36,923 bases of DNA, taken from assembly GCA_018058245.1 (NCBI GenBank), contig JAGPCC010000010.1:1-36923 (forward strand), read 5' to 3'. The notes beneath the pieces are model-generated. The model saw only the letters and a list, made by a program, of their open reading frames with translations. It was not told where the DNA came from and searched no databases. Origin of the DNA: Verrucomicrobiales bacterium. GTDB lineage: Bacteria > Verrucomicrobiota > Verrucomicrobiia > Verrucomicrobiales > DEV007. Made by a program: the position numbers and the translations under genes. Shown here in pieces: positions 7,110-30,127 of this stretch. Every line of letters starts with the position of its first letter. Within the stretch, counting starts at the first letter, position 1.

Positions 7110-7175
7110 ACTCGATTCTCCGAAACCTTCGATTTCTCTACCACCCCCTTTTCAACACGCATTGTTTCCAATCCA

Positions 7176-13530: not shown

Positions 13531-14859
13531 ATGCGCACCCCAATCCAGATTCCGAATTTCCTCGCACCCGATGAGTCGGTGACGGGGATCGGGGCGTTCC
13601 GCATCCTGGGCATCTACGAACTCGTTGATCAGTTTGCGACCGAGTTCCAGATCGACCACGAGATCGCCTTCGCCTCCCTGCTGGCCGGTTTCTCGCATTC
13701 GATCGGGGGTGCGTTCGAGATCGACAGCGCCCTGGGGAAGATCCGGCCGCCGTTCTCCCTGCTTCTGGTGACACCCGAGACAGACGCGATCTGGTGCCGG
13801 ATCCCAACCCGGTTCCTCGTTGATGACTTCGAGGGTACGATGCGGGCGTTCTCCAATGTGAACCTCTCGCGGAACAAGAATCCCGACAAGGACGCGGAGG
13901 CCGCTCCCGGCCACCCCGAGGAGGACCGAATCGCCCAAACGATGGAAACGGCAAAGTCGGTATATGCGGACAAAGTCGCGGAGCGGATCACCACCTCCTC
14001 TCTGGCAGCACCGTTCCTGCGGGAGCCCTTCGACCACCATGTCCTGCTCACCGCCCCTCCCACGGGCCTGAGTCGCGCGTTTCGACTGCTGTCATCCGAC
14101 GAGAGGTTCCGGCTTGAGCAGGCCCTATGCTCAAGCACGCCGATGCCACCGCGGGCCGGGGAAGTGTCCGGTGCGGCACCCTCCTTCTTCTGGCAGGTGG
14201 ATCATCACGAGGCCCGTCGGTTCATCGAACAGAATCCCTGGTTTGCCGGGATGCCTTTCCTGATGCTGGAGTCTGCCACCCCGGGAGCCGCGAGGCTTGA
14301 GGTAGATGGCATGTCCCCCGGCGAGATCCACCGCCGGTGCTTCGAACTCTTCGTGATGCGTCACTGTGCCATGCGGCGTCCCACTACTTTCTCCGTACGC
14401 GACGACGCCACCTTCCGGCCATTGCGCAAGTTTCTCACGAAGGCCCAAGCCTGGGAGGCAAAGTTCGAGACACGGTCTCTGGCACGTCCGGCCCGCGTGG
14501 CGGAACACGCCCTTCGCTTCGCTCTCCTGTTAACCATTTTGGACAAGAAGCCGGAGCCCGATGAGGCGGCCGTCTTCATGGGACTGGAGCTGGCCAAGCG
14601 GCTTCACATTCGGCATCTGAAAACACTGACGAAGATTCTGCCGATTGCCCCGAGCGAGGTGCCGGACACAGAGGGAATGTCGGACCGGGAGAGGAACGTC
14701 TACTTCCGCGTCTGCGAGCGCCCGGGGCTCAGTCCGTCGAAGTTGGGCCGGTCCTTTCAGAGCATGAGGAAAACGGAAAGGGACCAGCTGATCGCGACCC
14801 TGATGGGAAGACGGTTGGTGGAGCTGAGGGGCGGGGGGCTGTATCAGTTCGCGGCATGA
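13531..14859 (+). CDS. Accessory protein, possibly DUF3987-like
   Basis: The protein has 442 residues and starts MRTPIQIPNFLAPDE. The first 130 residues (FRILGIYELVDQFATEFQI, then FASLLAGFSHSIGGAFEI and PFSLLLVTPE) resemble the N-terminal helical unit seen in DUF3987/YfjI-type proteins of mobile elements. A middle domain with WQVDHHEARRFIEQNPWFAG follows. The C-terminus resembles a winged helix (RNVYFRVCERPGLSPSKLGR, ending GGGLYQFAA). No Walker A motif is visible. Its stop codon overlaps the start of the M41 peptidase gene (ATGA), so the two are translationally coupled and may act together. I cannot give a function. Confidence 0.5.
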   Translation: MRTPIQIPNFLAPDESVTGIGAFRILGIYELVDQFATEFQIDHEIAFASLLAGFSHSIGGAFEIDSALGKIRPPFSLLLVTPETDAIWCRIPTRFLVDDFEGTMRAFSNVNLSRNKNPDKDAEAAPGHPEEDRIAQTMETAKSVYADKVAERITTSSLAAPFLREPFDHHVLLTAPPTGLSRAFRLLSSDERFRLEQALCSSTPMPPRAGEVSGAAPSFFWQVDHHEARRFIEQNPWFAGMPFLMLESATPGAARLEVDGMSPGEIHRRCFELFVMRHCAMRRPTTFSVRDDATFRPLRKFLTKAQAWEAKFETRSLARPARVAEHALRFALLLTILDKKPEPDEAAVFMGLELAKRLHIRHLKTLTKILPIAPSEVPDTEGMSDRERNVYFRVCERPGLSPSKLGRSFQSMRKTERDQLIATLMGRRLVELRGGGLYQFAA

Positions 14860-15476
14860 GTTTTCTCCTTGAACCGAGTTCTCAAAGGGGAATGATTTGT
14901 TTCATGGAGGAACGAGATCGCAGAGTAGCTTATCACGAAGCTGGCCATGTAGTTGCCCACTTCTACTTTCGGTCCGTCGTCGACCTGCAATTCGAATATG
15001 TCACGATTGAACCCGACCGTGAGGAGGGTTCGGCCGGACACGTGAAATTGATCCCATCGGGTAGAGGGATTCAACCCGACCTGTTCGATTTCACGTTAGA
15101 TGACGAAATGAACGAGGAGGCCTGCGGGATGACTCAGCGCGAACTTGAAGCCCGAATGTCAATCCTACTGGCTGGCGAGGCGGCAACCTACGTCCTTGAT
15201 GGGCGCCGCGACGAACACGGTACAGGAAGAGAAGAGTGGAGCGGCGACTACGCTGGCTGCATGGAGTTCCTTGAACGGCTCTTTTGGGTCGAAGACGAAG
15301 CTGAAGCAACTGGGAACCGGGCAGCGCATGCCTACATGGAGGCCCTCTTCTGGCGGATGGCGTTTACCTTCGAGATGTCTGCCTGGAGAAACAAGCTCGA
15401 TCGGATCGCTGAATCATTGTTGAAGAAACGAAAATTGTCGGCAGCCGAATGTCACTCGATCTACACGGCCGCGTGA
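14856..15476 (+). CDS. Stand-alone FtsH-like M41 metallopeptidase domain protein
   Basis: The protein has 206 residues. The zinc motif is AYHEAGHVVAHFYF with HEAGH at residues 27-31, followed by LAGEAATYVLDG and a downstream Asp in EEWSGDYAGCMEF that fits the third zinc ligand of FtsH peptidases (LLGGRAAEE...ND in FtsH). The FtsH transmembrane and AAA+ parts are absent, so it must work on unfolded or delivered substrates, or with a separate ATPase. Internal starts at residues 13 and 17 are possible; I kept the ATG at 14856 because of the 4-bp overlap with the upstream gene. Such solitary M41 domains occur in mobile elements, and the substrate is unknown. Confidence 0.75.
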   Translation: MSFLLEPSSQRGMICFMEERDRRVAYHEAGHVVAHFYFRSVVDLQFEYVTIEPDREEGSAGHVKLIPSGRGIQPDLFDFTLDDEMNEEACGMTQRELEARMSILLAGEAATYVLDGRRDEHGTGREEWSGDYAGCMEFLERLFWVEDEAEATGNRAAHAYMEALFWRMAFTFEMSAWRNKLDRIAESLLKKRKLSAAECHSIYTAA

Positions 15477-15516: not shown

Positions 15517-15795
15517 TCATCTCCTGCCAGAGATCAAGTCATCCAGATCTTCTCTCAATGCCCGTTCTGACGGTAGAAGCTTGGTCGGATCAACTCCCAG
15601 TTCACGGGCTATAATCGCGAGTTCGAAGTCGAAAACGCTGCGAAGCTGGGACTCGATCTTGGCCACGCCGACGCGGTCGAGGGTGTGGAGCCCGGCCAGC
15701 TGGAGGCGGGCGCCGAACTGGTCCTGGGTCAAGGACTTGCTCATGCGAAGCTCTCGGACCCGAGGACCGATGCAATTTCTGTAGCGGCGCGACAT
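15517..15795 (-). CDS. XRE-family transcriptional regulator
   Basis: This 92-residue protein has one HTH domain: IGPRVRELRMSKSLTQDQFG, LAGLHTLDRVGVAKIESQLR as the recognition part, then FELAIIARELGVDPTKLLPS. It has no effector domain. It is divergent from the membrane-protein gene at 15853. Two copies of a GTTC(C/T)CC-N3-GGGAAC-type palindrome sit 5 bp before its own start (15800-15815) and over the start of the neighbour (15846-15861). It therefore very probably represses itself and the neighbour. Confidence 0.85.
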   Translation of the reverse strand: MSRRYRNCIGPRVRELRMSKSLTQDQFGARLQLAGLHTLDRVGVAKIESQLRSVFDFELAIIARELGVDPTKLLPSERALREDLDDLISGRR

Positions 15796-15799
15796 TCAC

Positions 15800-16296: not shown

Positions 16297-16401
16297 AATC
16301 CGGGACCCTCAATAATTCGGTCTTGGCGCTGTCATTGCTTGCCCCCATGTGATTCGTCCTCCACGGCGCAATAACCTCCCTTCCCGCGGCATATAAGTTT
16401 G

Positions 16402-16614
16402 ATGGCACGACCTACCCACTACGTGCCCGTCATCTCGCGACCGGTCGTCGCGGCGCTCTTCCATGAAGCGAAACGTCACCGCATTCCGATGACGAAGCTC
16501 GTGGATCGTCTGCTCGAGGAATCTCTACGGGGAACCCCAGGGTGGACACAAGCGTCACTGGACTGGCCCGAACTGACGGCGCCACCACAAAACAGGAATC
16601 AGCATTCCCGCTGA
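16402..16614 (+). CDS. Small hypothetical protein, possible ribbon-helix-helix type
   Basis: The 70-residue frame starts at an ATG at 16402 (MARPTHYVPVISRPVVAALF). It contains the helix AALFHEAKRHRIPMTKLVDR, which has the spacing of a ribbon-helix-helix DNA-binding protein (short strand, helix, turn 'IPMTKLVD', helix). No ribosome site is obvious. An intrinsic terminator lies 31 bp downstream, which supports a real transcription unit. Confidence 0.55.
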   Translation: MARPTHYVPVISRPVVAALFHEAKRHRIPMTKLVDRLLEESLRGTPGWTQASLDWPELTAPPQNRNQHSR

Positions 16615-16645
16615 TCGAACCAACCAGCTGCGGCCCGATTTTCGA

Positions 16646-16676
16646 AGCCCGGTCTCTTTGCGAGATCGGGCTTTTT
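16646..16676 (+). terminator. Rho-independent terminator
   Basis: AGCCCGGTCTC (16646-16656) pairs with GAGATCGGGCT (16662-16672), 11 bp with one G-U, followed by a T-run. It separates the small gene at 16402 from the cluster starting at 16727. Confidence 0.9.
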
Positions 16677-16726
16677 CGTAATTCGGCCGTTTTCGCAAAA
16701 CCAACCACGAACCCAAACCTACGATC

Positions 16727-17344
16727 ATGGCAATCAAACTTATCGCCAATTACGCCAAACGGCTGGGCCTCCCCGGCTACAGCTCCCACCAATTCAGCGT
16801 CTCCTGCGAAACCGAACTGACCGACCTCACCCAGGTTCACGACGAGGCAGCCCGCCTCTACGACCTGCTCCAGGATTCCGTGGATCGCGAGATCCAGCAA
16901 ACCGGGTTCGTTCCCGGCGACGACTACGGTGACAAGTCCGCGAGCTCCGTCCATGCCAACGGTCAATCCCATGGCAACGGCAACGGACAGAAGATCAACG
17001 GCCACCACCCGGACGCCGATCCCGTGTGGCAATGCTCCGACCGTCAGCGCGAACTCATCATCGGACTCGCCACCGAACTCAACCTCGATGACGCGTCTCT
17101 GGACAAGCGTTCGGAACGGCTCTTCCGTCGGCCTGCGCACCAGCTCAACAAGCTGGGTGCGAGCGGGCTCATCAGCGACCTCCTCGCCGAGGCGGGGACC
17201 CGCCGACAGCGCGAAGGACGCCACGGCGGAAACGCTGGCAATGGCAACGGAACGAACGGCAGCGGATCCACCCATACTCCCCGCCACGGGAACGGGAATG
17301 GCCAAGCCAGACCCGCGCCCCACCGGAACGGAGGTGGTGCATGA
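16727..17344 (+). CDS. Conserved-looking protein with Gly/Asn-rich linkers, first gene of the clamp/AAA cluster
   Basis: The 205-residue protein has three parts. An N-terminal domain (1-63) begins AIKLIANYAKRLGLPGYSSH and continues QFSVSCETELTDLTQVHDEA, ending with a helix LYDLLQDSVDREIQQTG. A linker (65-98) has repeated GNGNG and His. A helical middle section (103-155; DRQRELIIGLATELNLDD, then HQLNKLGASGLISDLLAEAG) looks like the small C-terminal units seen in phage recombination proteins, which I note only as similarity in pattern. The tail (160-205) is a low-complexity Gly/Asn/His/Arg tract. It overlaps the nuclease gene by 4 bp (ATGA), so the two are co-translated. An accessory nucleic-acid-binding role is inferred from context. 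Confidence 0.7.
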   Translation: MAIKLIANYAKRLGLPGYSSHQFSVSCETELTDLTQVHDEAARLYDLLQDSVDREIQQTGFVPGDDYGDKSASSVHANGQSHGNGNGQKINGHHPDADPVWQCSDRQRELIIGLATELNLDDASLDKRSERLFRRPAHQLNKLGASGLISDLLAEAGTRRQREGRHGGNAGNGNGTNGSGSTHTPRHGNGNGQARPAPHRNGGGA

Positions 17345-18210
17345 GCACTGCCCATTGCATTGTCGATTCATCCTCACCCACCGCGATCCGCCTGCTCCCC
17401 GATCCGGGGACGGGCAAACCCGTCGATCGGTCCGAGCCCGACCTGCTTCGTTACCTCAGCGCCTCGCGCCTGAAGTGCTGGCAGACCTGCCGGCGACAAT
17501 TCTACTACCGTTACGTCGAGCGCCTCACTGTCCCCACGGCCCCGGCGCTCTTCATCGGTCGTCAGATCCACGAGGTACTGCGCCTCTGGAACTGGGCCAA
17601 ATGGAAGGATGAACCGCTTTCGCCAGAGCAGCTTCACGGCGCTCTGATCGAAAGCTGGGAGCGTGACAGTGCAGCCGAGTTCATCCCCTGGAAAACCCCC
17701 GACGATGAAGTCACGGCCAAGGCACAGGCTTGGGCCATGTTAGAGACCTATTTCGCCCAATGCCCCGTCGCCCCGGACGAAAGACCCGAGGGTGTCGAGG
17801 TGCAGGTCGAATGCAGTCTGGGTGCCGGCATCCCGCCGCTCTACGGCATCATCGATCTCGTGAGGCCCGGTGGTCGCATCGTGGATTACAAGTCGGCGGC
17901 TCGCAGTCCCAGTGAAGGCATGGCCGAACATCAGCATGCCACCCAGTTATCCTGTTATGCCCTGCTTTACCGCAGTGCCACAGGTGAACGGGAAACGGGC
18001 TTCGAACTGCATCACCTCATCAAAACAAAAGTGCCGAAGGTGATCATCTCCACCTACGGCCCCATGTCGGCGGCGATGGAGAGCGAGCTGTTCTTCCTCA
18101 TCGACGACTACCTCGAAGGCATTGCCCGCGAAGCCTGGGTTCCATCACCGGGCCAGCACTGCTCGTGGTGCGATCACCTCTCCCTCTGTCGGAAACGCTC
18201 CGGCATGTGA
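17341..18210 (+). CDS. Cas4/AddB-type PD-(D/E)XK exonuclease with Fe-S cluster
   Basis: The 289-residue protein shows all the landmarks of the RecB-nuclease/Cas4 fold. These are SASRLKCWQTCRRQFYYRY (residues 40-58), the His of GRQIHEVL (H77), GIIDLV (D172), IVDYKS (D182, K184) and QLSCYALLY (Q202, Y206). Cys50, Cys274, Cys277 and Cys283 form the C...C-x2-C-x5-C set that holds a [4Fe-4S] cluster in Cas4 and AddB. The domain stands alone, without helicase. Such enzymes resect or trim DNA ends, often with a partner. There is no CRISPR array or cas gene nearby, so it is not a CRISPR Cas4. It is coupled to the upstream linker protein and heads the block with the sliding clamp and AAA ATPase. Confidence 0.88.
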   Translation: MSTAHCIVDSSSPTAIRLLPDPGTGKPVDRSEPDLLRYLSASRLKCWQTCRRQFYYRYVERLTVPTAPALFIGRQIHEVLRLWNWAKWKDEPLSPEQLHGALIESWERDSAAEFIPWKTPDDEVTAKAQAWAMLETYFAQCPVAPDERPEGVEVQVECSLGAGIPPLYGIIDLVRPGGRIVDYKSAARSPSEGMAEHQHATQLSCYALLYRSATGERETGFELHHLIKTKVPKVIISTYGPMSAAMESELFFLIDDYLEGIAREAWVPSPGQHCSWCDHLSLCRKRSGM

Positions 18211-18251
18211 ATAACTCCCTCAATAACCACCCCAACAACCAACCACCCCGG

Positions 18252-18290
18252 AAGGTCGGTCTGCTCCAGTCGCGCGGACCGGCCTTCTTC
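18252..18290 (+). terminator. Intrinsic terminator-like hairpin
   Basis: GAAGGTCGGTC (18252-18262) pairs with GACCGGCCTTC (18278-18288), 11 bp with one G-U, followed by a pyrimidine-rich TTCCTTTCC. The T-run is weak, so read-through is possible. Confidence 0.7.
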
Positions 18291-18346
18291 CTTTCCATCC
18301 AAAATAACCACCATCCCTAACCAAAAACTAAGAACGACGAACCCTC

Positions 18347-18706
18347 ATGAATATGAACACCCATCCCATGTCCCGAATCACCCGCCTCGCCGTGACCCTT
18401 GTGCTCGGCATCCTCCTACTCAGCTCAGTGAGCTGTTCCGCTCCCGACTTCGGCTCCCGGGCCAAAGAAAACGCCGCGGCCATCGAGAAACTCGAGAGCC
18501 GCTTCAACGAACTCGAAAACGGTCTCGGCGGAGTCGTCTTCTGGCAGGCCCTCGCCGCGGTCTTCTTCGTGCTCGCGGGCTTCGCCCTCGTCGGCGGAGC
18601 GGCGCTCGGTTCCCGGGCGCGGCGCGACCACACCCGCTATTTCGGAGGAGCGGCGAACAACGACGACTCCCGGAACCTCGACAACCCCAACAAACCCACC
18701 GCATGA
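18347..18706 (+). CDS. Small lipoprotein with transmembrane segment
   Basis: This 119-residue protein has a signal peptide with a lipobox-like LSSVSC (Cys30), then a short charged helix (AKENAAAIEKLESRFNELEN) likely to form a coiled coil. A hydrophobic segment (VVFWQALAAVFFVLAGFALV, about 60-80) and a basic/Asn-rich tail follow. It overlaps the next gene by 4 bp. The coiled-coil plus single-TM design recalls small phage spanin or holin-type proteins, but I see no other lysis genes. It is probably an envelope protein made together with the next gene. Confidence 0.65.
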   Translation: MNMNTHPMSRITRLAVTLVLGILLLSSVSCSAPDFGSRAKENAAAIEKLESRFNELENGLGGVVFWQALAAVFFVLAGFALVGGAALGSRARRDHTRYFGGAANNDDSRNLDNPNKPTA

Positions 18707-19161
18707 AATCCTTCGACCAACTCCCCGACTACAAGGACCTGCAGTGCCTCTGGAAACAGGAGCGGATCGAGCGGCCCATCCCTAACCTCGAGCTTACCCC
18801 GGACAGCGGGATGGAGCGCGGGGCCGAGGTCGTTGGCTGGTGGATCGCCCGCCTTGAGTTCTGGCTCAGCGAGAGCGGCTGGCTGCGGGCTTGGCTGCGC
18901 TTCAACCTGATCGTCTCTATCGTGCTCGCCAGCGCCGGACTGCTCCTCCTGCCCCCGGTCACCCGGGTCCTTGAGCAGCTCGCCCGATCCAGTCATTGGG
19001 TCGGCGAAATCTTCGGCGATGTCTTCACGCTCGTCACCGGTCTGCCCCCCGTCGCCATCACCCTTGGTGTGCTCTACCTCGGCTACGTGCTCTACCGCCG
19101 TTTCCGTCGCAAGCGCCTGCCCCAACGGGGCGGATATCCAAACGAGGAATACTACCAGTGA
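18703..19161 (+). CDS. Hypothetical membrane protein
   Basis: The protein has 152 residues. The soluble N-terminal part (1-60) contains DYKDLQCLWKQERIERPIP. Two hydrophobic segments follow (about 68-90 and 110-130), and the C-terminus is short and basic (RRFRRKRLPQR). It is translationally coupled to the lipoprotein gene (ATGA overlap), so the two probably act as a membrane pair. No known family is visible to me. It is odd to find two envelope proteins between a nuclease and a sliding clamp. Confidence 0.65.
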   Translation: MKSFDQLPDYKDLQCLWKQERIERPIPNLELTPDSGMERGAEVVGWWIARLEFWLSESGWLRAWLRFNLIVSIVLASAGLLLLPPVTRVLEQLARSSHWVGEIFGDVFTLVTGLPPVAITLGVLYLGYVLYRRFRRKRLPQRGGYPNEEYYQ

Positions 19162-19174
19162 ATGTCCTCAAACC

Positions 19175-19196
19175 CTCAACACCTCAATCTCTGAAC
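19175..19196 (+). repeat. G-poor leader motif, copy 1 (before the sliding-clamp gene)
   Basis: CTCAACACCTCAATCTCTGA and following bases end 13 bp before the clamp ATG. The same motif occurs before the DUF3150 and DUF1257 genes (20756 and 21896). No Shine-Dalgarno sequence is present. Confidence 0.6.
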
Positions 19197-19209
19197 TCAT
19201 CACCCTGAC

Positions 19210-20661
19210 ATGATCACCAAACATCCTCCCGCCACCGTGCGCGCCTCCGACTTGAAGGCGGCGCTGCCCGGACTCGGCAAACTCATCCCCCGCACCCCTT
19301 CGCTCGCCGTTCTCGGCTGTGTGAAGGTGGAGGCGGCGGGGCCACAGCTCCTGCGTCTCACCACCACCGATCTGGACCTGGCCCTCAGCGTCGAACTCCC
19401 GGCCACGGTGGAGAAAGGTCTCTCGCCCTTCCTCCTGCCAATGGCTCGCCTGCGCGAACTCCTCGCCGGCCTGCGCTCCGACGAAGTCGTCGGTCTCGGT
19501 CCGTCCATCAAGGCCCCGCCCGTTGGCGAGTTCCCCGAGATCCCCCAGGTCCGCACCCCGGGCCTGACTCTCCCGGAGCCCGTTGTCACCAGTGTCCTAC
19601 GTGCCTTCGCCTGTGCTTCCAACGATCCCACCCGTGGGGTCCTGCGTAGTGCCTGCTTCGACGTGAGCGGCACCGGACCCAAGGCTCACCGCATCGTCGG
19701 GACCAATGGCAGGGCACTGTTCTCGAGCAACTCCATGCACCTGCCTCTGAAGCAGTCCGTCATACTGCCCGATCATCCGCTCTGGAAGTGGAAACCGCTC
19801 GCCGACTCCCGGCCGTGGACCCTGCGTCTCGGTAAGGACAAACATCGTGCCGAAGTCTTCCGCATGGAAGGTCAGGCCTGGTCGGTGACGGGTCGTCTCC
19901 TCGACGGTCCCTATCCGAACTACCGTCAGGTTATTCCGGGCCCGGCGCAGTTCATGACCACGGTGACCTTGAGCGATTCCGCCCTCGAGGCGGTGACGCG
20001 ATTGTTGCCCCGGCTCCCCGGCAAACAGCTCGCCAACCGTCCCGTCGGCCTGCACTTCGAGAAGGGCCGCTTCGGCCTGCTCGCCCGTGCCGAAAACGAC
20101 GAACCCTGGATCCTTCATCCTGTGGATCGCTGCGAGATGAAGGGGCCTGATGTGACTATCTTCTTGGATCGAGACTACTTAATCAAGGCGATGTCCTTCG
20201 GGCTTCATCGTATCTCGACGGGCGACTCGGTGAGTCCCTTGCAGTTCAGCCGGGGCGGAGATCTCATGATCGTCATGCCGGTGCGTGCTATCGCTCCGGA
20301 TCGGATCGAGCGACCCAGGCTCGTGCCGGCGGTGGAGCAGTTCGCCTCACCGCCAGCTCCTGTGCCGAAACCCGTCGCTCCCGCCACACTCATGCCGCAA
20401 AAGCCGCCGACACCCGAGCCCACGAAGAAGGTCCCGAACAAGGATCCTCTCGCCGAGGCCCGCCATCAGGTCGCCGAAGCCGACGAGGCCCTCCTCACGG
20501 CGAGACGAACGCTGAAGGGCGTGCGCCGTTCCCTGCACAGCGCCCGCACCCAGCGTTCCGAAACCAAACGTGAACTGCGTGGCTTCCGTGGCCTGCTTCA
20601 GAAGCTGAAGCGCTCCCGGCGAAAGGAAGGCAACGAGACCAAAGACGGCAAGGCCGCCTGA
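19210..20661 (+). CDS. DNA polymerase III beta-clamp paralogue with basic C-terminal extension
   Basis: The protein has 483 residues. Residues 1-361 follow the three-domain beta-clamp layout: domain 1 begins VRASDLKAALPGLGKLIP, the middle contains the DnaN hallmark RLLDGPYPNYRQVIP (about 229-243), and domain 3 ends IVMPVR at about residue 360. Residues 362-483 are extra: a Pro-rich linker (about 370-410) and a basic, heptad-like coil (TARRTLKGVRRSLHSARTQR, then GLLQKLKRSRRK). The usual DnaN is about 366 residues, so the extension is unusual. As an accessory clamp it could tether polymerases or nucleases to element DNA or compete with the host clamp; the Cas4-type nuclease and AAA genes in the same block support a DNA-transaction role. 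The exact role is inference. Confidence 0.85.
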   Translation: MITKHPPATVRASDLKAALPGLGKLIPRTPSLAVLGCVKVEAAGPQLLRLTTTDLDLALSVELPATVEKGLSPFLLPMARLRELLAGLRSDEVVGLGPSIKAPPVGEFPEIPQVRTPGLTLPEPVVTSVLRAFACASNDPTRGVLRSACFDVSGTGPKAHRIVGTNGRALFSSNSMHLPLKQSVILPDHPLWKWKPLADSRPWTLRLGKDKHRAEVFRMEGQAWSVTGRLLDGPYPNYRQVIPGPAQFMTTVTLSDSALEAVTRLLPRLPGKQLANRPVGLHFEKGRFGLLARAENDEPWILHPVDRCEMKGPDVTIFLDRDYLIKAMSFGLHRISTGDSVSPLQFSRGGDLMIVMPVRAIAPDRIERPRLVPAVEQFASPPAPVPKPVAPATLMPQKPPTPEPTKKVPNKDPLAEARHQVAEADEALLTARRTLKGVRRSLHSARTQRSETKRELRGFRGLLQKLKRSRRKEGNETKDGKAA

Positions 20662-20691
20662 CAAAACACCCCCAACCAACCCACAACCCCC

Positions 20692-20734
20692 GGCCCGGGT
20701 TCCCTGTCCTCACAGACACGGAGCCCGGGCCTTT
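20692..20734 (+). terminator. Strong hairpin terminator
   Basis: A 17-bp stem (GGCCCGGG ... CCCGGGCC, 20692-20708 with 20715-20731) has one mismatch and one G-U around CTCACA, then TTT. It lies 30 bp after the clamp stop. Confidence 0.85.
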
Positions 20735-20755
20735 CACTTTCAAAATCCTCACCTC

Positions 20756-20777
20756 CTCAAAACCTCAATCCCTGAAC
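20756..20777 (+). repeat. G-poor leader motif, copy 2 (before the DUF3150 gene)
   Basis: CTCAAAACCTCAATCCCTGA and following bases, 13 bp before the ATG at 20791. It matches copy 1 at 20 of 22 positions. Confidence 0.6.
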
Positions 20778-20790
20778 CCCAACACTCACC

Positions 20791-21813
20791 ATGAATCCGA
20801 ACAACGATCTCCTCTCCGTCCTCACCCGCGAAGGTGTCCTCATCAACGCCAGCGTCCGTTACCCCCGCTTCCACAAGAAGCTCAGTCCCGCCGATCTCGG
20901 TCTCGAACCCGACCAGGTCAGCGAGCGGCTCATGAGCCTCGGCCACAAGCGCCTTCTCCCCAAGGAGGCTCTCGCCAGCCTCGCCCTCGTCGAGAGCCGC
21001 ACCCATGCCCTCATCGAGAAAAACACCTTTCCGTTCCTCGGCGGCATAGGGCACTTCCTGCCCAACGCCAAACTGGTCGAAGTGCAGGAAGGGCTGAATG
21101 CGCAAAACGTCTGTTTTCGCGAAAGCCGGGATCGCTTCCTCGACGATTACCGCGAACTCCGTTCCCGCGCCCTCGACGAATGGCGCGACGCGACCCGCCA
21201 AATTGCGAAAACCTACGAGGAAGGAGAACGGCTGTTTTCGCAGATCCAAAGTTCTTTCCCGCACCGGGAACAGCTCGAACGGCGGTTTTGCTTCGACGTG
21301 CATCTTTTCCAGATCGCCGTGCCCGAGTCCCTCGGAATAGAGCTGGTCAGCTTCGCCGAGCAACAGGAAGTCCGACTCGCCCGTCACGAGGCCGCCGCTT
21401 CCGCCGCCCGGCAGATCCGGGATGGGGTCGAGGGTTTCGTTGGCGAGTGTGTCATCGAGTTGCGCCATCAGACCGCCCAGCTCTGCGACGAGATGCTCGC
21501 CAGCATGCGCTCCGGAAAAACGGACGGCGTCCATCAAAAGACCCTCAACCGGCTCGTGAAGTTTATCGACGACTTCAAGCAGCTCAACTTCGCCGGCGAC
21601 AAGGAGATGGAGCAGCAGCTCGACCGTGTCCGCAGCGAACTGCTCGGGCGCAATGCTGAGGACTATCGCAACAGCCTCACCGCTTCCCGCAACCTCGAAA
21701 GCGGCCTCAGCCAGCTCCGCGACCAGGCCCGTGAACTGGCCAGTCAGGATGCCCGCGCCCTCGTCGAGCGCTTCGGCCAGATGGGCCGCAGGAAGTTGCA
21801 ACTCGCCGGCTGA
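20791..21813 (+). CDS. DUF3150 (DUF6744-like) protein
   Basis: The protein has 340 residues. The N-terminal half carries the DUF3150 order of features: a short strand SVRYPRFHKKLSPADLGL, then LMSLGHKRLLPKEALASL, then the FLGGIGHFLPNAKL motif, and FRESRDRFLDDYRE. The second half is almost all helix and likely coiled coil (about 190-340). DUF3150 proteins occur with MoxR or other AAA+ ATPases and are thought to be helical partners or adaptors; no enzymatic motif is visible. It starts the sub-operon DUF3150 - DUF1257 - DUF2997 - unknown - AAA and follows a strong terminator. Confidence 0.75.
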   Translation: MNPNNDLLSVLTREGVLINASVRYPRFHKKLSPADLGLEPDQVSERLMSLGHKRLLPKEALASLALVESRTHALIEKNTFPFLGGIGHFLPNAKLVEVQEGLNAQNVCFRESRDRFLDDYRELRSRALDEWRDATRQIAKTYEEGERLFSQIQSSFPHREQLERRFCFDVHLFQIAVPESLGIELVSFAEQQEVRLARHEAAASAARQIRDGVEGFVGECVIELRHQTAQLCDEMLASMRSGKTDGVHQKTLNRLVKFIDDFKQLNFAGDKEMEQQLDRVRSELLGRNAEDYRNSLTASRNLESGLSQLRDQARELASQDARALVERFGQMGRRKLQLAG

Positions 21814-21845
21814 GGCATCCTGACCGACACACCAACGCCACACAC

Positions 21846-21886
21846 AACAGGGTCGGGTCCCATCCCCGACCCTGTTCACCCCCTTT
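21846..21886 (+). terminator. Hairpin terminator
   Basis: A perfect 12-bp stem AACAGGGTCGGG/CCCGACCCTGTT (21846-21857 with 21865-21876) has a 7-nt loop, followed by CACCCCCTTTT. The T-tract is offset by about 7 nt, so efficiency is uncertain. Confidence 0.75.
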
Positions 21887-21895
21887 TCCGAATCC

Positions 21896-21930
21896 AACCT
21901 CAATCCCTAAAAACCTCAACACCTCAAACC
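21896..21930 (+). repeat. G-poor leader motif, copy 3 (before the DUF1257 gene)
   Basis: AACCTCAATCCCTAAA is followed by two more CCTCAA units (ACCTCAACACCTCAAACC) ending 11 bp before the ATG at 21942. It has no Shine-Dalgarno sequence and hardly any G. Confidence 0.6.
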
Positions 21931-21941
21931 CTACCAATACC

Positions 21942-22319
21942 ATGTCCCACTTCACCACCATCCAAACCCAGATCCGCGATGTCGAAGCCCTCGAAGCCGC
22001 CTGCACCGAACTCGGTGTCGAGCTGCTCCGCAACACCGAGGCCCGCGGCTTCGCCAACAGCACCCGCCAAGGTGAACTCGTCGTCCGCCTCAAAGGTCCC
22101 TACGACATCGCCGCCAATCGTGTGGACGGATCTGACTCCTACGAACTCGCCACCGACTGGTGGAACGGCCACGTCGAACGCGAAGTCGGCGTCAACTACG
22201 GCCGACTCCTCCAGCTCTACGGCGTCCACAAGACCATCCGTGAAGCCAACAAGAAACGCCTCCGTGTCACCCGTCACCAGGAGACCGACGGATCCATCCG
22301 GCTCAGCCTCGCCGCCTGA
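21942..22319 (+). CDS. DUF1257 (Ycf35-like) protein
   Basis: The 125-residue, single-domain protein opens MSHFTTIQTQIRDVEALEAA, the standard DUF1257 start. Next are EARGFANSTRQGELVVRLKG and a strand-rich part with SYELATDWWNGHVEREVG. It ends with YGVHKTIREANKKRLRVTR and a beta hairpin (QETDGSIRLSLAA). Ycf35/DUF1257 proteins are conserved in cyanobacteria and plastids and occur with Ycf46-type AAA ATPases; their molecular role is not known. Here it directly precedes DUF2997 and, two genes on, the AAA ATPase, repeating the known association outside photosynthetic organisms. Confidence 0.88.
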   Translation: MSHFTTIQTQIRDVEALEAACTELGVELLRNTEARGFANSTRQGELVVRLKGPYDIAANRVDGSDSYELATDWWNGHVEREVGVNYGRLLQLYGVHKTIREANKKRLRVTRHQETDGSIRLSLAA

Positions 22320-22345
22320 TCGCCATTCAAATCCACCGACTTCCT

Positions 22346-22552
22346 ATGAAATCGAAAGAACGAATCGACGTCTGGATCAGCCCCGAGGGCGCCATCACCA
22401 TCGACGCCGTGGGCTACACCGGGAGCAGTTGCGAGGAGGCCACCCGCTTCCTTGAAACGTCACTCGGCACCGTCGGGCGGAAGCAGCGCAGCCGCGACTA
22501 CTACCGCAAAAACACCAGCCAACAATCCAACCAGCAAGAACAACAATCATAG
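22346..22552 (+). CDS. DUF2997 protein
   Basis: This 68-residue protein has the DUF2997 pattern: strand ERIDVWISPEGAITIDAVGY, then GSSCEEATRFLETSLGTVG, a charged section KQRSRDYYRK and a Gln/Asn tail. It is the usual small partner of DUF1257 proteins. The gene is 26 bp after DUF1257, with no terminator between them, so they are co-transcribed. It has no catalytic residues; it is probably a structural or regulatory subunit. Confidence 0.85.
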   Translation: MKSKERIDVWISPEGAITIDAVGYTGSSCEEATRFLETSLGTVGRKQRSRDYYRKNTSQQSNQQEQQS

Positions 22553-22557
22553 CAATC

Positions 22558-22824
22558 ATGATCACCACCCCCCTCCCCGAAGTGATCCACTTCAACCCTG
22601 ACGGCACCGGAGCCGGACTCTACACCGAGTTGATCGATCTCCGTGAGATCGGTTCTCTCGAGATCGTCCGTGCCTCCGAGATCGAGTTCAACGAGACCAC
22701 CCAGCAGTGGGAGGTCTTCGACTTCACCGGGAGCCGGGTCCACAGCGACCCCTCCCGCGAAGCCTGCCTCCGCTGGGAGCGCCAGCACTTCAATCAATCC
22801 CACCCATCCACCCCGAACCCCTGA
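22558..22824 (+). CDS. Small hypothetical protein
   Basis: The 88-residue soluble protein begins 5 bp after the DUF2997 stop. It has a strand-rich first half (IHFNPDGTGAGLYTELIDLR, then IVRASEIEFNETTQQWEVFD) and a short C-terminal helix with W and H residues. I do not recognise the family. The position between DUF2997 and the AAA ATPase and the tight spacing argue for a subunit or modulator of the same complex. Confidence 0.7.
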   Translation: MITTPLPEVIHFNPDGTGAGLYTELIDLREIGSLEIVRASEIEFNETTQQWEVFDFTGSRVHSDPSREACLRWERQHFNQSHPSTPNP

Positions 22825-22828
22825 TTCC

Positions 22829-24328
22829 ATGAAGCATCAAATCATCCGTTATGCGCGGGCCGGTCATGCCGGCCTTTTTTTGTGCACCGCCGAAGAGGCG
22901 CGTGCCGAGGCCATTGTCAAAGCCGCCGCCGATGAACTCCAGCGTCCCCTCCATGCCTGGAGTGCGACCGAGGGATTTGTCGACACGACCTTGGGCACGA
23001 TCCAGCCCTGTCTCGATCCGGCCATGGCCCTTGACCAGATCCTTGACCTCCAAGACGATGCCCTCATCCTTTTGCGGGATTTCGGCGCGTTCCTCGAGGA
23101 CAAAGATCCCGTCCTGCATCGCAAGCTGCGGGACACCCTGCGCAACGCCCGCAGCACCGGCAAGCTCCTCATCCTCCTCGGAGTGTGGAAGGCTCTCCCT
23201 GCTGAGTTGGAGCGCGAGATCACCCGACTCGACCTGGCCCTGCCCGATCCTGCGGAACTCGATCTCGTCCTCGCGGGCATCATCGAGTCCGCCGGACTCA
23301 CCGGTCATCGCGATCTCACTCCTGCCCTCCGGGAAGCAGCCCTCGCCGCGGCCGGTGGACTCACCACTCTGGAAGCGGAAAATGCCTTCGCTCTGTCGCT
23401 GATCGAATCCGAGACCATCACCCCGGCCATCGTCGCTCGTGAAAAGGCGCAGGCACTCAAGAAAGGCGGGCTACTTGAGGTCATCACCCCGACAGAGTCG
23501 CTCGACTCCATCGGTGGTCTCGACCGGCTCAAAGGCTGGCTCCTCCAGCGCCGCGAGGCGTTCACGAAACGGGCTCGCGACTACGGCCTTCCGCTGCCCA
23601 AAGGCATGCTCGTGCTGGGGGTTCCCGGCACCGGAAAGAGCCTCACCGCCAAAGCCACCGCCAGTGTCTTCGGTGTGCCCCTGCTCAAGCTCGACGCAGG
23701 CAAGCTCTTCGGGTCCCTCGTGGGCCAGTCCGAGGCCAACCTCCGCGCCGTCATCCAGACCGCCGAGGCCATCAGTCCCTGTGTCCTCTGGATCGACGAG
23801 ATCGAGAAGGGCTTCGGCGGAACTGGCAGTTCCGGTGGTTCCGACGGAGGCACGAGTAGTCGTGTCTTCGGCACGATGCTCAACTGGTTGCAGGACAAGA
23901 CCCATCCGGTCTTTGTTGTCGCCACCGCCAACGATGTCAGCAAGCTGCCGCCCGAGATGCTCCGCAAGGGGCGCTGGGATGAACTCTGGTTTGTGGACCT
24001 GCCCGACACCCGGGAGCGCGCCGCCATCTGGGACATCGTCATCGAGAAGTTCGGTCGTGATAAAACCGACTACGATACCGTCGTCCTCGCCCGCGCCAGC
24101 GAACTGCACACAGGAGCCGAGATCGAGGCCACCTTCGTCGAGGCCCTCCACCGCGGGTTCACCGAAGATCGCGAGCCCACCGAACTCGATCTCGGGGAAG
24201 TGCTGGGTGAGTCCGTTCCCCTCGCCACCACTATGAGCGAGTCGATCGAGCGGATCCGCCACTGGGCGAACGGCCGAGCAAGGTGTGCATCGGCATCGGC
24301 GCCGGGGACGAGGAGGTCCAGACAATGA
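22829..24328 (+). CDS. Ycf46-like AAA+ ATPase
   Basis: The start is the ATG at 22829, which gives 499 residues; its opening IIRYARAGHAGLFLCTAEEA matches the Ycf46 N-terminal domain (an inactive P-loop-like fold). LHAWSATEGF is another Ycf46 signature. The C-terminal AAA+ domain has Walker A GVPGTGKSLTAKA (about 264-276), Walker B CVLWIDEIEKGF (about 317-328), sensor FVVATANDVSKLPPEMLRKG and an arginine finger/second-sensor region LPPEMLRKGRWDELWFVDLP. It should hydrolyse ATP and remodel a partner protein or complex. DUF1257, DUF2997 and the DUF3150 protein are the obvious partners. The stop overlaps the next gene (ATGA). A terminator-like hairpin lies inside codons 10-18. Confidence 0.9.
   Translation: MKHQIIRYARAGHAGLFLCTAEEARAEAIVKAAADELQRPLHAWSATEGFVDTTLGTIQPCLDPAMALDQILDLQDDALILLRDFGAFLEDKDPVLHRKLRDTLRNARSTGKLLILLGVWKALPAELEREITRLDLALPDPAELDLVLAGIIESAGLTGHRDLTPALREAALAAAGGLTTLEAENAFALSLIESETITPAIVAREKAQALKKGGLLEVITPTESLDSIGGLDRLKGWLLQRREAFTKRARDYGLPLPKGMLVLGVPGTGKSLTAKATASVFGVPLLKLDAGKLFGSLVGQSEANLRAVIQTAEAISPCVLWIDEIEKGFGGTGSSGGSDGGTSSRVFGTMLNWLQDKTHPVFVVATANDVSKLPPEMLRKGRWDELWFVDLPDTRERAAIWDIVIEKFGRDKTDYDTVVLARASELHTGAEIEATFVEALHRGFTEDREPTELDLGEVLGESVPLATTMSESIERIRHWANGRARCASASAPGTRRSRQ
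22858..22881 (+). promoter_or_regulatory. Terminator-like hairpin inside the start of the AAA gene
   Basis: GGCCGG (22858-22863) and CCGGCC (22869-22874) pair around TCATG and are followed by seven T. The hairpin begins 29 bp inside the AAA coding sequence. It may act as an attenuator that lowers ATPase expression relative to the upstream small genes. Confidence 0.6.
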
Positions 24329-24708
24329 GTGAGGACCGGGAACCGGATGTTGGAACTCTCATCCCCAAGGATGAAGCCGAAGCAACGCGGCGTCTTCTGC
24401 GAGTTCGTGGCATCAGCGTCGGGCAACTCGCCGATCTGACCAACGAGGAGATTCTCGTCCCCTGGTGGAGTTTCTTCTGGCTCCATCTCGGGCTTCATCC
24501 GGACGATGCCACAGTCTGGCCAGCGGAAGTCTCCGACTCCCTGCCCCTCGCCTCCGAGGCCTGCCGCCGATACGAGGCAGGTCTGATCGCCGACGGTGAA
24601 TACTACCCCACTGAAGCCGTCCGCGATTGTATCAGGCGAGCCCGGACACGTCGTTCCCGGCAGCAACCTCTCCCACCACAACCAAAAGCGGCCCCGTCCG
24701 AAACGTGA
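24325..24708 (+). CDS. Hypothetical protein, last gene of the cluster
   Basis: The ATG at 24325 overlaps the AAA stop (ATGA), so translation is coupled and 127 residues follow. The protein has an acidic start (SEDREPDVGTLIPKDEAEAT), a helical section with LLRVRGISVGQLADLTNEEI, a Trp-rich LVPWWSFFWLHLGLHP, and a basic Pro-rich tail (RRARTRRSRQQPLPPQPK). No known family is visible. As the translationally coupled partner of the ATPase, it could be an adaptor or substrate. Confidence 0.65.
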   Translation: MSEDREPDVGTLIPKDEAEATRRLLRVRGISVGQLADLTNEEILVPWWSFFWLHLGLHPDDATVWPAEVSDSLPLASEACRRYEAGLIADGEYYPTEAVRDCIRRARTRRSRQQPLPPQPKAAPSET

Positions 24709-24755
24709 CCGCAGCGACCGACACTCCCGAATGCGTGAAGGAGGTCCGGTCCGGG

Positions 24756-24787
24756 AAAACTCGCCGCCATGTTACGGGGCGGGTTTT
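24756..24787 (+). terminator. Rho-independent terminator at the end of the cluster
   Basis: AAAACTCGCC pairs with GGCGGGTTTT (one G-U), with a 12-nt loop, followed by TTTTC. It is the last feature before the IS66 element. Confidence 0.8.
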
Positions 24788-24929
24788 CTTTAGCTGGGAT
24801 GTCTTCGGATTCAATCAGGCATGACGATCTTTAGTCCTGCACCACGCTGTCGAAGACCCTCCAGGCGTTCTTCCTCGGCGAGCTTCGATTTGAATTAGGT
24901 TCTCCGCGGGAGTGATCAGGAAAAAATGG

Positions 24930-24950
24930 GTAAGCGTCAATAAATTGGCC
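24930..24950 (+). repeat. IS66 left inverted repeat
   Basis: It begins GTAAGCGTCAATAAATTG and ends GCC, pairing with the right end at 20 of 21 positions. Confidence 0.9.
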
Positions 24951-24977
24951 TCCTTGCCACAGTCGCAAGATCCTCGG

Positions 24978-26591
24978 TCAGGCAGCGGCCTTTTGCGCAG
25001 CGACTTTTGACCGCTTGTCGCGGTAGGCCGGGAGTGGCTGTAACTCGCGGATCAGCGAGGCCAGCTTTGCCGGGGTGAGTTCTGCTGCCTCCTCAACAGT
25101 CGCGTTGACCGGCATCCTACGCAGGGCTTCTTCAAAGTAGCGCTCGGGATCAATTTTCTGTTCCCGGCAGTTCGCCACGAGGGTGTAGAGCAACGCGCTT
25201 GCAGGCCCCGCTTCCGCATTGCCGATGAAGAGCCAGTTTTTCAGTCCAAGCTTCAGCGGACGGATCAGGTTTTCCACCGCGTTGTTGTCGATGTCGAGAC
25301 GCTCCTCAAGAAGATAGCGCTCAAGCTGCTCCCATTGGCCCAGGGCGTAGGTGAGCGCCTCGCCCAGATTGCCTTTGGGGAGATATCTGCCGTGTTCGAG
25401 GATGATCTTGTCTTTAAGTTTCTTCAAAAGTGGTCGGGCATGACCCGAGCGGATCAGGATGCGACAGGCATCAGTATGCGGTCCGGCCCGCATTCGCGAT
25501 TCGATGGCGTAGAGCTTGCGGATCAGCGCGAGGATCGTTTCGACAGGCTCCGGCGATTCGCTCCGGGCATCATAAAACTTCCGCCGGATATGGGCGAGGC
25601 AGGCGCCGAGCAGGATTTCTCGATACCGGTTTCCGATCGCTTCGTAGGCACTGTAGCCGTCGCACTGGATAAGTCTCACGAGGCAGTCCACTGTCTCGTC
25701 ATCGAGACCGAGGAACTCAATCATGCTCTCGTGCCCGCGTCCCCGTCGCCAGTCAAAAGCCACTGTCCCGGTCGATGGATCGCGATAGCACCACATGTAA
25801 CCTCGGGCGGTTCGGCCTTCGCCGGGCGAGAGATAGAACATCGGCGTTTCATCGATCTGGATGACTTCGGCGAGGCGCAGTTCGTTGGTGATCGCGGCGC
25901 GCAGGGGTTCGAGATGCCTCACTGCGGCATGGGTCCAGGTGTTGAGTGTTTGCCGGCTCAACTCGGCTCCGAAGCGGTGGAGGAACCGAGCCGACTGCCG
26001 GTAGTGCGGATCATGGTAGACATATTTGTCGGCGAGGATCATCGCCAGCAGGCCGGGGTCGCACAGGGTTCCCGGCACGCTCGGAAGCGGGGCGGGAGAC
26101 ACAACGGGTGCCGCCTCGCGATCGTCACGGACCTTGTACTTCTTGCGGATCTGACGCAGCCAGTACAACTCCGCTTTCTGAACGGCGAGCTCGTCGTGGT
26201 GGAGTTCTCCAATCTCGATGAAGGCGTCCGGATTGGCGAGGACTTCGTCGGGGATGATGACCTTCACCACCTCGACGCGGAGACACTGAGGGAGCAAGTC
26301 ACGCTTGCTCCGACGCTCAGCGCCTCCCGCCTTTGCCCCGGCTGCCTCGTCCTTTTCGTTTGTCGGGTTCGAAGAGGACGGCTCGAACTTTCCCAACACA
26401 TCCTCCCCGAAGTCGAGTTGCTCCTGATCGGGATGGTAGCGCTCCGACTTGCTCCCGAAGAGCCGGTGCTGAAGCGCTGCGATGATCTGGTCCTTTCGGG
26501 CGAGTTCGCGTTTGGCGGCGGCTAGTTCCGCCTCGAGACGATCGACTCGTTCGAGGAGTTTTTTCACCAGCGCTTCCAGGTCTTCGGCCAT
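24978..26591 (-). CDS. tnpC: IS66 family transposase (TnpC)
   Basis: The protein has 537 residues, a normal IS66 TnpC length. The N-terminal coiled coil (EDLEALVKKLLERVDRLEAE) is followed by the LFGSKSERYHPDQEQL motif. The DDE residues are visible in VIQIDETPMF (about 246), LIQCDGYSAY (about 310) and NNAVENLIRPLKLGLKNWL (about 438), with the usual ACLAHIRRKFYDA between the second and third. The frame is intact, so it is probably active or recently active. Transposition also needs the two small genes downstream of the right end. Confidence 0.95.
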   Translation of the reverse strand: MAEDLEALVKKLLERVDRLEAELAAAKRELARKDQIIAALQHRLFGSKSERYHPDQEQLDFGEDVLGKFEPSSSNPTNEKDEAAGAKAGGAERRSKRDLLPQCLRVEVVKVIIPDEVLANPDAFIEIGELHHDELAVQKAELYWLRQIRKKYKVRDDREAAPVVSPAPLPSVPGTLCDPGLLAMILADKYVYHDPHYRQSARFLHRFGAELSRQTLNTWTHAAVRHLEPLRAAITNELRLAEVIQIDETPMFYLSPGEGRTARGYMWCYRDPSTGTVAFDWRRGRGHESMIEFLGLDDETVDCLVRLIQCDGYSAYEAIGNRYREILLGACLAHIRRKFYDARSESPEPVETILALIRKLYAIESRMRAGPHTDACRILIRSGHARPLLKKLKDKIILEHGRYLPKGNLGEALTYALGQWEQLERYLLEERLDIDNNAVENLIRPLKLGLKNWLFIGNAEAGPASALLYTLVANCREQKIDPERYFEEALRRMPVNATVEEAAELTPAKLASLIRELQPLPAYRDKRSKVAAQKAAA

Positions 26592-26658
26592 TGCGAAGAG
26601 ACACTAACAAGCACCGACTCAATGGCAAGTCCGCAGTCGCGCGAGAGGAATATTTTGT

Positions 26659-27021
26659 TCAGGATTTTGGCCCCTCATACCAGGGGCGAAGTGTCGCACC
26701 CCGCAGATCGACACCGTCGAGGAGCATCTGCAGGGCCTCGGGCCGCAGGCGCAGCCTGGTTTGCCCCTGCTCCGCGGTTGGCCAACTGAAGGTGCCTTTC
26801 TCCAAACGCTTTGCCGCGACCCACAGCCCGGTCCCATCGAAGTAGAGCATCTTGATACGATCCTTCCGTTTGTTGATGAAGACGAAAAGCATGTCGGTAC
26901 CGAGGCGACCGTCGCCCAGTTGCTGGCTCGCCGCGGCAAAGAGCCCGTTGAAGGACTTGCGCATGTCGCAGGGCTCGAGAGCGACATAGATTTTGAGAGC
27001 TGCCTTGCCAAGGCCGATCAT
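26659..27021 (-). CDS. tnpB: IS66 family accessory protein TnpB (Orf2)
   Basis: The 120-residue protein starts MIGLGKAALKIYVALEPCDM and continues MRKSFNGLFAAASQQLG, the standard IS66 Orf2 signature. LFVFINKRKDRIKMLYFDG and the RLEKGTFSWP motif follow. It overlaps tnpA by 4 bp (ATGA) and is 67 bp before tnpC. The protein is required for transposition of IS66 elements, but its biochemical action is not known. Confidence 0.95.
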   Translation of the reverse strand: MIGLGKAALKIYVALEPCDMRKSFNGLFAAASQQLGDGRLGTDMLFVFINKRKDRIKMLYFDGTGLWVAAKRLEKGTFSWPTAEQGQTRLRLRPEALQMLLDGVDLRGATLRPWYEGPKS

Positions 27022-27242
27022 CGCGCACCTCCTTTCCGCGTGCGTCGGAACTCGGAGATGAATGCGGCAGCAAGAGGCACACTGCGCTCGTTCTCGACGA
27101 GAATGGAAAGGCCGTCGCTGAACTGGATGACCAGTCGCGGTACCACGGGGGCGGCGAACTCCACCTCGACAAACTGAACGCTCTCACACTCGGCACGCTT
27201 CACGCGGCTCGCCTTCGCTGATCGGGATGATTTCCTCGGCAT
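27018..27242 (-). CDS. tnpA: IS66 family accessory protein TnpA (Orf1)
   Basis: The 74-residue basic protein matches the short form of IS66 Orf1: a Lys/Arg-rich start (PRKSSRSAKASRVKRAECES), then FVEVEFAAPVVPRLVIQFSD and ILVENERSVPLAAAFI. It is the first gene of the element and overlaps tnpB by 4 bp. Confidence 0.8.
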   Translation of the reverse strand: MPRKSSRSAKASRVKRAECESVQFVEVEFAAPVVPRLVIQFSDGLSILVENERSVPLAAAFISEFRRTRKGGAR

Positions 27243-27280
27243 CCGGCGACTCTACCGGCTCGGACGCTCGGCGACCACGG

Positions 27281-27301
27281 GGTCAATTTATTGACGCTTA
27301 C
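27281..27301 (-). repeat. IS66 right inverted repeat
   Basis: Read on the minus strand it begins GTAAGCGTCAATAAATTG and ends ACC, one mismatch from the left repeat. Confidence 0.9.
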
Positions 27302-27312
27302 CAAAAATCCGC

Positions 27313-29328: not shown

Positions 29329-29990
29329 CGGTGCGCAGCTACAATCGCCTCGTCAGTAGTGTGGATGAGGGAGTGGGCGAGCTGATCCGGGCGCTCGCGG
29401 AAACCGGTCAACTCGAGAACACGCTCATCGTCTTCACATCCGATCAAGGCTACGCTTGGGGTGAGCATGGTTTTGCATGGAAGGTCGGACCCTACGATGC
29501 CTGCCTTAGAATGCCGCTGATTCTCAGCCTGCCGGGACGCGTCGCGCGCGGCGCGGTTTGTCGCCAGCCGGTAGGCATCGTCGATCTCGCCCCCACAATC
29601 CTCGGATTCGCCGGCGTGCCGCTGCCATGGGAAATGCACGGGCATGATCTCCGTCCGCTGCTGAATGAACCAGACAAGCCGGTCAAACACCCGTTGCTCA
29701 CTGAGCATTTTGGAATTCGATTTGGAACGGAGACGGATCGTGGCGAAACAGGCGCGGACGATCTCCGCGGCGTGCCTTGGTGGCTCTCCCTGCGGCAGGG
29801 CCGATACAAGTATGTGCGCTACCTTGTTCCCGATAAGATCGAGGAACTCTACGATCTCGCAACTGACCCGGCGGAGTTGAAGAACATCGCTCTCGATCCA
29901 GCGCAACGCCCTGTGCTTGAAGACTGCCGAGAGCAATTGCACGGTGAACTCAAACGCACCAAGGCCGGACTCCTGGACACGCTCCACTAA
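29088..29990 (+). pseudogene. Sulfatase, C-terminal half only
   Basis: An open frame (300 residues from an ATG at 29088) turns into clear sulfatase sequence at about 29180: FYVDAEVPVPPDVFGPR, then SYNRLVSSVDEGVGELIRAL, ENTLIVFTSDQGYAWGEHGF and VGPYDACLRMPLILSLPGR. It ends with the family-typical LRQGRYKYVRY and EELYDLATDPAELKNIA. The N-terminal half, including the C/S-x-P-x-R formylglycine motif and the first metal ligands, is missing, so it cannot be an active sulfatase. The junction with the upstream gene lies between about 29150 and 29190 and indicates one deletion joining two genes. Confidence 0.8.
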
Positions 29991-30127
29991 TTTTTTTTCC
30001 ATAAACGGGAATCAATTTCAGCGCGGTGCCCGCACGAGTCGCAACCTTGAGCGGCGCGAGAACCCCGTCGCGGCTGCTGCAAGCAGCAGAAGCACGATAT
30101 AAGCTGAACGAACTGATCAACTGATCA

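Follow-up and report, generated by a model that had tools for sequence, protein, structure and literature searches.

A putative recombination and replication island with an exchangeable AAA+ motor in integrative elements of Verrucomicrobiota

What brings a nuclease, a sliding clamp and a Ycf46-like AAA+ ATPase together in one run of bacterial genes? The question is raised by a 36,923-nucleotide (nt) stretch from a Verrucomicrobiales bacterium (assembly GCA_018058245.1, contig JAGPCC010000010.1, positions 1 to 36,923), hereafter the window, in which eleven genes lie between 16727 and 24708. An earlier note on this DNA had described a Cas4-type nuclease, a clamp, DUF3150, DUF1257, DUF2997 and Ycf46-like proteins together with five proteins of no named family, and had proposed a replication, repair or inter-element conflict machine within a mobile element. 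We consider it likely that the block is a recombination and replication island of tRNA-targeted integrative elements of Verrucomicrobiota, in which an exchangeable AAA+ motor acts together with DUF3150. Its role in recombination has good support; the task of the motor is one that we infer.

Much of the earlier description stands. There are eleven plus-strand open reading frames (ORFs) at 16727-24708; Pfam names the nuclease, DUF3150, DUF1257, DUF2997 and AAA proteins, the clamp is identified by a family profile compared with solved clamps, and the other five proteins have no Pfam family. The several ATGA couplings are 4-nt overlaps at three junctions (16727/17341, 18347/18703 and AAA/24325), and the DUF2997, 22558 and AAA genes are spaced by 4-5 nt. 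The gene list has been amended at two starts, now 22829 for the AAA gene and 24325 for the last one. A conserved twelfth gene (16402-16614, plus strand) had been overlooked and belongs to the block. It encodes a basic protein of 70 amino acids (aa), without Pfam family and ribbon-helix-helix-like by eye, which lies directly upstream of gene 16727 in 30 loci (ratio of nonsynonymous to synonymous substitution rates, dN/dS, 0.12) and is a probable DNA-binding regulator. The loci were collected by homology searches and share ancestry, and their counts therefore describe a pattern and do not imply independence, which tempers the argument made below.

Could these genes simply be unrelated cargo gathered in a genomic island? 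Mobile islands do collect such genes, and some parts of this block are optional. However, the block recurs in order, whole or in part, in dozens of Verrucomicrobiota genomes, the order being identical in more than 20 loci with several ATGA couplings; Haloferula luteola and Luteolibacter marinus are among the culturable carriers. DNA-level similarity to one relative (L137) spans 16381 to 24795 and then ends, which argues that the block edges are real. All twelve genes are under purifying selection, with dN/dS values of 0.12-0.67 against 1.07 for a 384-aa antisense ORF used as control. Accidental adjacency, for which the earlier note had left room, is contradicted by the conserved order and is extremely improbable.

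A complete, single-contig relative (G104) shows the integrative element that carries the block: it measures 37.4 kb, and a direct repeat of 64 bp, perfect in both copies, marks its two ends. One copy of the repeat is the 3' part of a tRNA-Leu (CAG) gene and a tyrosine recombinase (Phage_integrase, 8.9e-7) stands beside the other. No relaxase or type IV secretion system was found among the subset of its proteins scanned. In further copies an integrase adjoins tRNA-Thr (L143 and L145), tRNA-Glu (L201) or tRNA-Ala (L190). Of 142 genomes from the order, 14 have DUF3150, as do 19 of 388 from the phylum. The family of gene 16727 is present in 69 of 388; a single genome may hold as many as eight copies, and the genome of the window has a second one (at C5). 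Such patchy spread and multiple copies per genome are the pattern of mobile elements. Phage and plasmid records searched directly by tblastn contained no match to gene 16727 or to DUF3150.

The recombination role starts from the first two genes of the run. The predicted product of gene 16727 (16727-17344, plus strand) has, in its AlphaFold2 model (mean predicted local distance difference test score 73, above 90 in the structured parts), a confidently predicted N-terminal domain of beta-beta-alpha topology and a C-terminal domain of three helices, with a disordered Asn/Gly-rich linker between them. When this fold was compared with the PDB by Foldseek, the top six matches were all the Red-beta C-terminal domain (probability 0.99-1.00, E 0.03-0.3), in structures complexed with lambda exonuclease or an SSB peptide, and the next match fell to 0.57. 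Against the viral library BFVD, essential recombination function (ERF) proteins, which are single-strand annealing proteins (SSAPs), were found near the top. The stop codon of the gene overlaps the nuclease start as ATGA in 24 of 27 loci, and the nuclease is present in 46 of 56 loci of this family. Because of the Red-beta-like fold matches and the coupling to the nuclease, we take the product to be a minimal Red-beta/ERF-like SSAP with putative annealing activity. Homology of its N-terminal domain to DUF2997 was considered and rejected.

The nuclease (17341-18210, plus strand) is a PD-(D/E)XK enzyme with Fe-S cysteines (PDDEXK_1, 2.8e-27) that matches phage exonucleases (phrog_69, 1e-22). The catalytic residues H77, D172, D182 and K184 and cysteines C50, C274, C277 and C283 are invariant in 23 aligned sequences. 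Given the Red-beta-like fold of its partner and the ATGA coupling, its most likely role is that of exonuclease in a Red-like pair with an annealing protein. The earlier label of Cas4-type nuclease has to be abandoned: the PD-(D/E)XK fold with four cysteines is shared with Cas4, but the score of 21.8 bits is far under the cut-off of 65, there are no CRISPR genes, and the partner is SSAP-like.

Two small membrane proteins follow, one with a lipoprotein-like start (18347-18706, plus strand; position kept in about 15 loci, dN/dS 0.22) and one ATGA-coupled to it (18703-19161, plus strand). The next gene (19210-20661, plus strand) encodes a sliding clamp that in Pfam alone is sub-threshold (0.28). 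Compared with solved beta clamps, the profile of its family aligns across all three domains (2.6e-36 to 7rzm, profile residues 14-374), and the partner-pocket motifs TxGRxL, PNYRQVIPG and MPVR are kept. The host has its own, separate canonical DnaN (C273, 1.2e-99), and the island clamp is therefore a second one. It carries a conserved helical C-terminal tail of about 90 residues that the host clamp does not have, and this tail could tether it to another island protein.

The second half of the block contains DUF3150 (20791-21813, plus strand; PF11348, 7.2e-20; 37 loci), DUF1257, which is Ycf35-like (21942-22319, plus strand; PF06868, 7.7e-12; sole copy in the genome), DUF2997 (22346-22552, plus strand; PF11211, 1.6e-11), an 88-aa conserved partner protein (22558-22824, plus strand; phrog_38408-like, 3.1e-9; 16 members aligned) and the Ycf46-like AAA+ ATPase (22829-24328, plus strand; PF00004, 6.5e-29). 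The match of the ATPase to phrog_8638 extends along the whole protein (2.9e-127), and relatives of the ATPase at 70-77% identity come from Akkermansiaceae/Verrucomicrobiales. Its catalytic motifs are intact, with Walker A (GxxGxGKS), a WIDEIEKG-type Walker B and RKGR invariant or nearly so. A 127-aa protein ATGA-coupled to the AAA gene (24325-24708, plus strand; 7 loci, dN/dS 0.33) is optional.

Do these parts form one indivisible machine? A comparison of 62 loci from related elements speaks against it and shows two exchangeable modules. Module A is formed by the 70-aa protein, the SSAP-like protein and the nuclease, usually with the two membrane proteins and the clamp; module B by DUF3150, DUF1257, DUF2997, the 22558 product and the AAA protein. 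A DUF932 protein stands in the place of module B in 18 SSAP loci. DUF932 and DUF3150 occur together in none of the SSAP loci and alone in 18 and 32, respectively; no p-value is relied on for this split, the loci being related and chosen by homology. An ATP-dependent ligase with a WGR domain goes with DUF932-type and DUF3150-type loci alike, and sister elements carry a ligase, a Prim-Pol/D5 primase-helicase and DUF3987.

A second exchange concerns the motor. In five loci DUF3150 is accompanied by a VWA protein, in four of them also by a MoxR-type AAA protein (AAA_5/CbbQ_C), and in none of them by the Ycf46 trio; conversely, MoxR and VWA are both missing from all 24 Ycf46 loci. The two forms thus never co-occur in the 37 DUF3150 loci (24 against 5), and MoxR-DUF3150-VWA is found with the same pair of SSAP and nuclease in more distant elements. 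In the island Ycf46, DUF1257, DUF2997 and the 88-aa protein take the place of MoxR and VWA, which suggests that Ycf46, DUF1257 and DUF2997 do the same kind of work. Since two unrelated remodeller forms share DUF3150 as neighbour, DUF3150 would be the connecting piece, one that may join the AAA motor to its target.

In genome G243 the DUF3150 gene (L187:10840-14527) is interrupted, as by a group II intron, by an ORF with reverse transcriptase and HNH domains (RVT_1, 5e-40), and three of the copies are split in this way. No relatives by sequence or fold were found in the PDB for DUF3150, DUF1257, DUF2997 or the 88-aa protein, and no gene fusion among DUF1257, DUF2997, AAA and DUF3150 that might have proved a complex was confirmed. 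In viral contigs (L096-L102), AAA-DUF3150 is followed by two small genes that resembled DUF1257 and DUF2997 by size and position and were discarded at below 2% probability in profile comparison.

That DUF1257, DUF2997 and Ycf46 are companions, as the earlier note had stated, is confirmed by 116 loci around Ycf46-like AAA proteins, 64 and 70 of which contain DUF1257 and DUF2997, respectively. No paper on DUF3150 was found, and the papers found on DUF1257, DUF2997, Ycf35 and Ycf46 give no established function. Outside the elements, a Treponema plasmid has a Fer4_12 radical-SAM-like protein (L208:7246-7854) beside a Ycf46-like AAA and contractile-injection genes, and in a Geminocystis plasmid (L209:4141-8592) DUF1257-DUF2997-AAA adjoin RloB, DUF4007 and zeta-toxin genes.

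The main rival to a motor that remodels DNA-bound proteins is a maturation chaperone, serving for example the Fe-S nuclease, and it owes this standing to neighbours seen at other loci, namely ferredoxin and radical-SAM-like genes. Enzyme maturation is a frequent role of MoxR/VWA pairs, and the island nuclease has its four invariant cysteines. A Fer4_12 radical-SAM-like gene lies near DUF2997, DUF1257 and AAA in 38 of the 116 loci (e.g., L023:6048-6551), and in cyanobacteria the DUF2997-ycf35 genes adjoin the ferredoxin gene fed7 (PMC4284462). However, no Fer4_12 gene was found beside the island, and many pairs of SSAP and Fe-S nuclease, those of DUF932-type elements, do without the AAA/DUF1257/DUF2997 unit. 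We regard a chaperone as unlikely.

Rather less likely still is an anti-phage or anti-plasmid defence in which an IetA-like AAA protein senses invasion and the nuclease destroys DNA. The AAA domain does resemble IetA (PADLOC, 4.6e-20), the Ycf46/DUF1257/DUF2997 core sits elsewhere with MkoA-like helicases, and NACHT, NERD, SNF2/PLD and HATPase plus N6-methylase genes nearby are defence-like. Yet the likeness is limited to the AAA domain (NCBIfam IteA, 70 against a cut-off of 510), with no subtilisin partner, and the block contains no protease or Mko protein that would place it in IetAS or Mokosh. The coupled partner of the nuclease is SSAP-like, and the genes that accompany it (clamp, ligase, primase-helicase and integrase) make up a replication set. 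Of the earlier proposal, a replication/recombination-type system in a mobile element is supported, but for inter-element conflict there is no direct evidence, only defence-like cargo beside several copies. The operons with MkoA-like (Mokosh) SF1 helicases (PADLOC, 3e-76 and 3e-107) and large unnamed proteins are a candidate undescribed defence system in their own right, spanning bacteria, archaea and viral contigs (L032:9998-19942, L036, L046, L054, L065, L075, L078, L091, L092 and L037:2929-11578).

For the recombination and replication island, we propose that the Fe-S nuclease would resect DNA ends and that the coupled Red-beta/ERF-like protein would bind the resulting single strand and anneal it, providing RecA-independent recombination and processing of the element's replication intermediates. 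The element's clamp would keep the host polymerase, and in sister elements also the element-encoded ligase, on element DNA during the ensuing synthesis. DUF3150 would tie this machinery to an ATP-driven AAA+ remodeller, the Ycf46-like set here and MoxR with CobT/VWA in other elements. The motor probably acts on intermediates of recombination or replication, stripping proteins from them or loading proteins again, with SSAP-DNA filaments, the clamp and the nuclease as candidate substrates.

Several observations weigh against this proposal. Neither Pfam nor PHROGs has a family for the product of gene 16727, and the SSAP assignment leans on a modest AlphaFold2 model and a small three-helix domain matched at E 0.03. 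Clamp, ligase and motor are each absent from some copies, and none of them is thus indispensable. Ycf46, DUF1257 and DUF2997 are widespread without any recombination gene, the AlphaFold2 model of DUF3150 has no fold match in the PDB, and the motor target is something we only infer. Finally, the window's own copy, on a 36.9-kb contig, has no attachment (att) repeat or convincing integrase remnant. Because of this, and because an IS66-family insertion that is not part of the island (24929-27302; DDE_Tnp_IS66, 1.7e-71; 19-bp inverted ends) directly follows the block, this copy may be truncated or decayed. A circular or terminally repeated contig was rejected, as no repeats were found.

A wider reading, which we put forward tentatively and hold to be possible but on balance doubtful, is that Ycf46-DUF1257-DUF2997 forms an AAA+ remodelling machine of general purpose, which is on a par with MoxR-VWA, can be exchanged for it, and acts via DUF3150 on recombination or clamp complexes in mobile elements. 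If true, it would give plastid and cyanobacterial Ycf35 and Ycf46 their first testable biochemical role. That Ycf35, Ycf46 and DUF2997, which cyanobacteria and algal plastids encode, replace MoxR-VWA beside DUF3150 and a recombination pair hints at the type of machine; the island is a small expressible system for probing it. It also adds a Verrucomicrobial family of integrative elements with its own clamp, ligase and primase-helicase and a probable new SSAP family, of possible use for engineering genomes in a phylum where genetic tools are scarce.

Around the island, two unnamed proteins without family (11284-12861 and 13531-14859, plus strand) precede it in the same order in L005, L007, L144, L147, L148 and L161; a relationship to DUF3987/D5 was not supported. 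A helix-turn-helix (HTH) regulator (15520-15798, minus strand; HTH_31, 2e-4) is often near the island (10 loci). The window also contains an FtsH-like peptidase M41 domain protein without AAA part (14856-15473; 5e-7), an HTH plus HipA-type kinase pair that is likely a toxin-antitoxin module (9444-11101), a DUF488 protein followed by a radical SAM protein (6534-8567), and sulfatase-like fragments adjoining the IS66 element that look by eye like decayed genes (27313-30418). The G104 element carries RHS and RCC1-repeat proteins and the HATPase plus N6-methylase pair (L166:6276-12485, L167:2505-6341), which has the look of restriction or defence cargo. NACHT, NERD and SNF2/PLD proteins, possible defence cargo, lie near other island copies (L005:17631-21344, L007:18570-20687, L136:752-4210).

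How does the island compare with known systems? With lambda Red (Exo/Bet) and ERF-type SSAPs it shares a predicted Red-beta-like C-terminal domain and an adjoining, coupled exonuclease. Gene 16727 differs in its short N-terminal beta-beta-alpha domain of about 60 aa and in having no sequence match, and the nuclease is PDDEXK_1 with Fe-S cysteines, not of the lambda-exo/YqaJ family. The clamp shares three domains and partner-pocket motifs with DnaN, but is an element-borne second copy with a helical tail. The three adjacent families Ycf46, Ycf35 (DUF1257) and DUF2997 are those of cyanobacteria and plastids, here placed in a mobile element with DUF3150 and no photosynthesis or ferredoxin genes.

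The closest counterpart is the cluster of SXT/R391 elements and IncC plasmids. In pR997, of the SXT/R391 family, the order is ssb-bet-hyp-exo-AAA-hyp-DUF3150-hyp-VWA-radC-primase/helicase, and in the IncC plasmid it is AAA-hyp-ssb-bet-exo-DUF3150-VWA. SXT Bet and Exo perform DNA recombination in E. coli (PMC3118119), and efficient transfer of Rts1 needs bet/exo (PMC10838148). The earlier note had allowed that the same order might already be described, and in part it is: ssb-bet-exo-MoxR-DUF3150-VWA is known from these elements, and the island likewise groups a (putative) annealing protein, an exonuclease, an AAA protein and DUF3150 in one co-directional mobile-element cluster. However, its annealing protein and nuclease are of other families, no ssb was found, it has a beta clamp that does not appear in the annotated stretch of pR997 or IncC, and instead of MoxR and VWA it carries the Ycf46-like AAA with DUF1257, DUF2997 and the 88-aa protein. 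The island is a conserved variant of known mobile-element recombination islands, and the motor swap is its new part.

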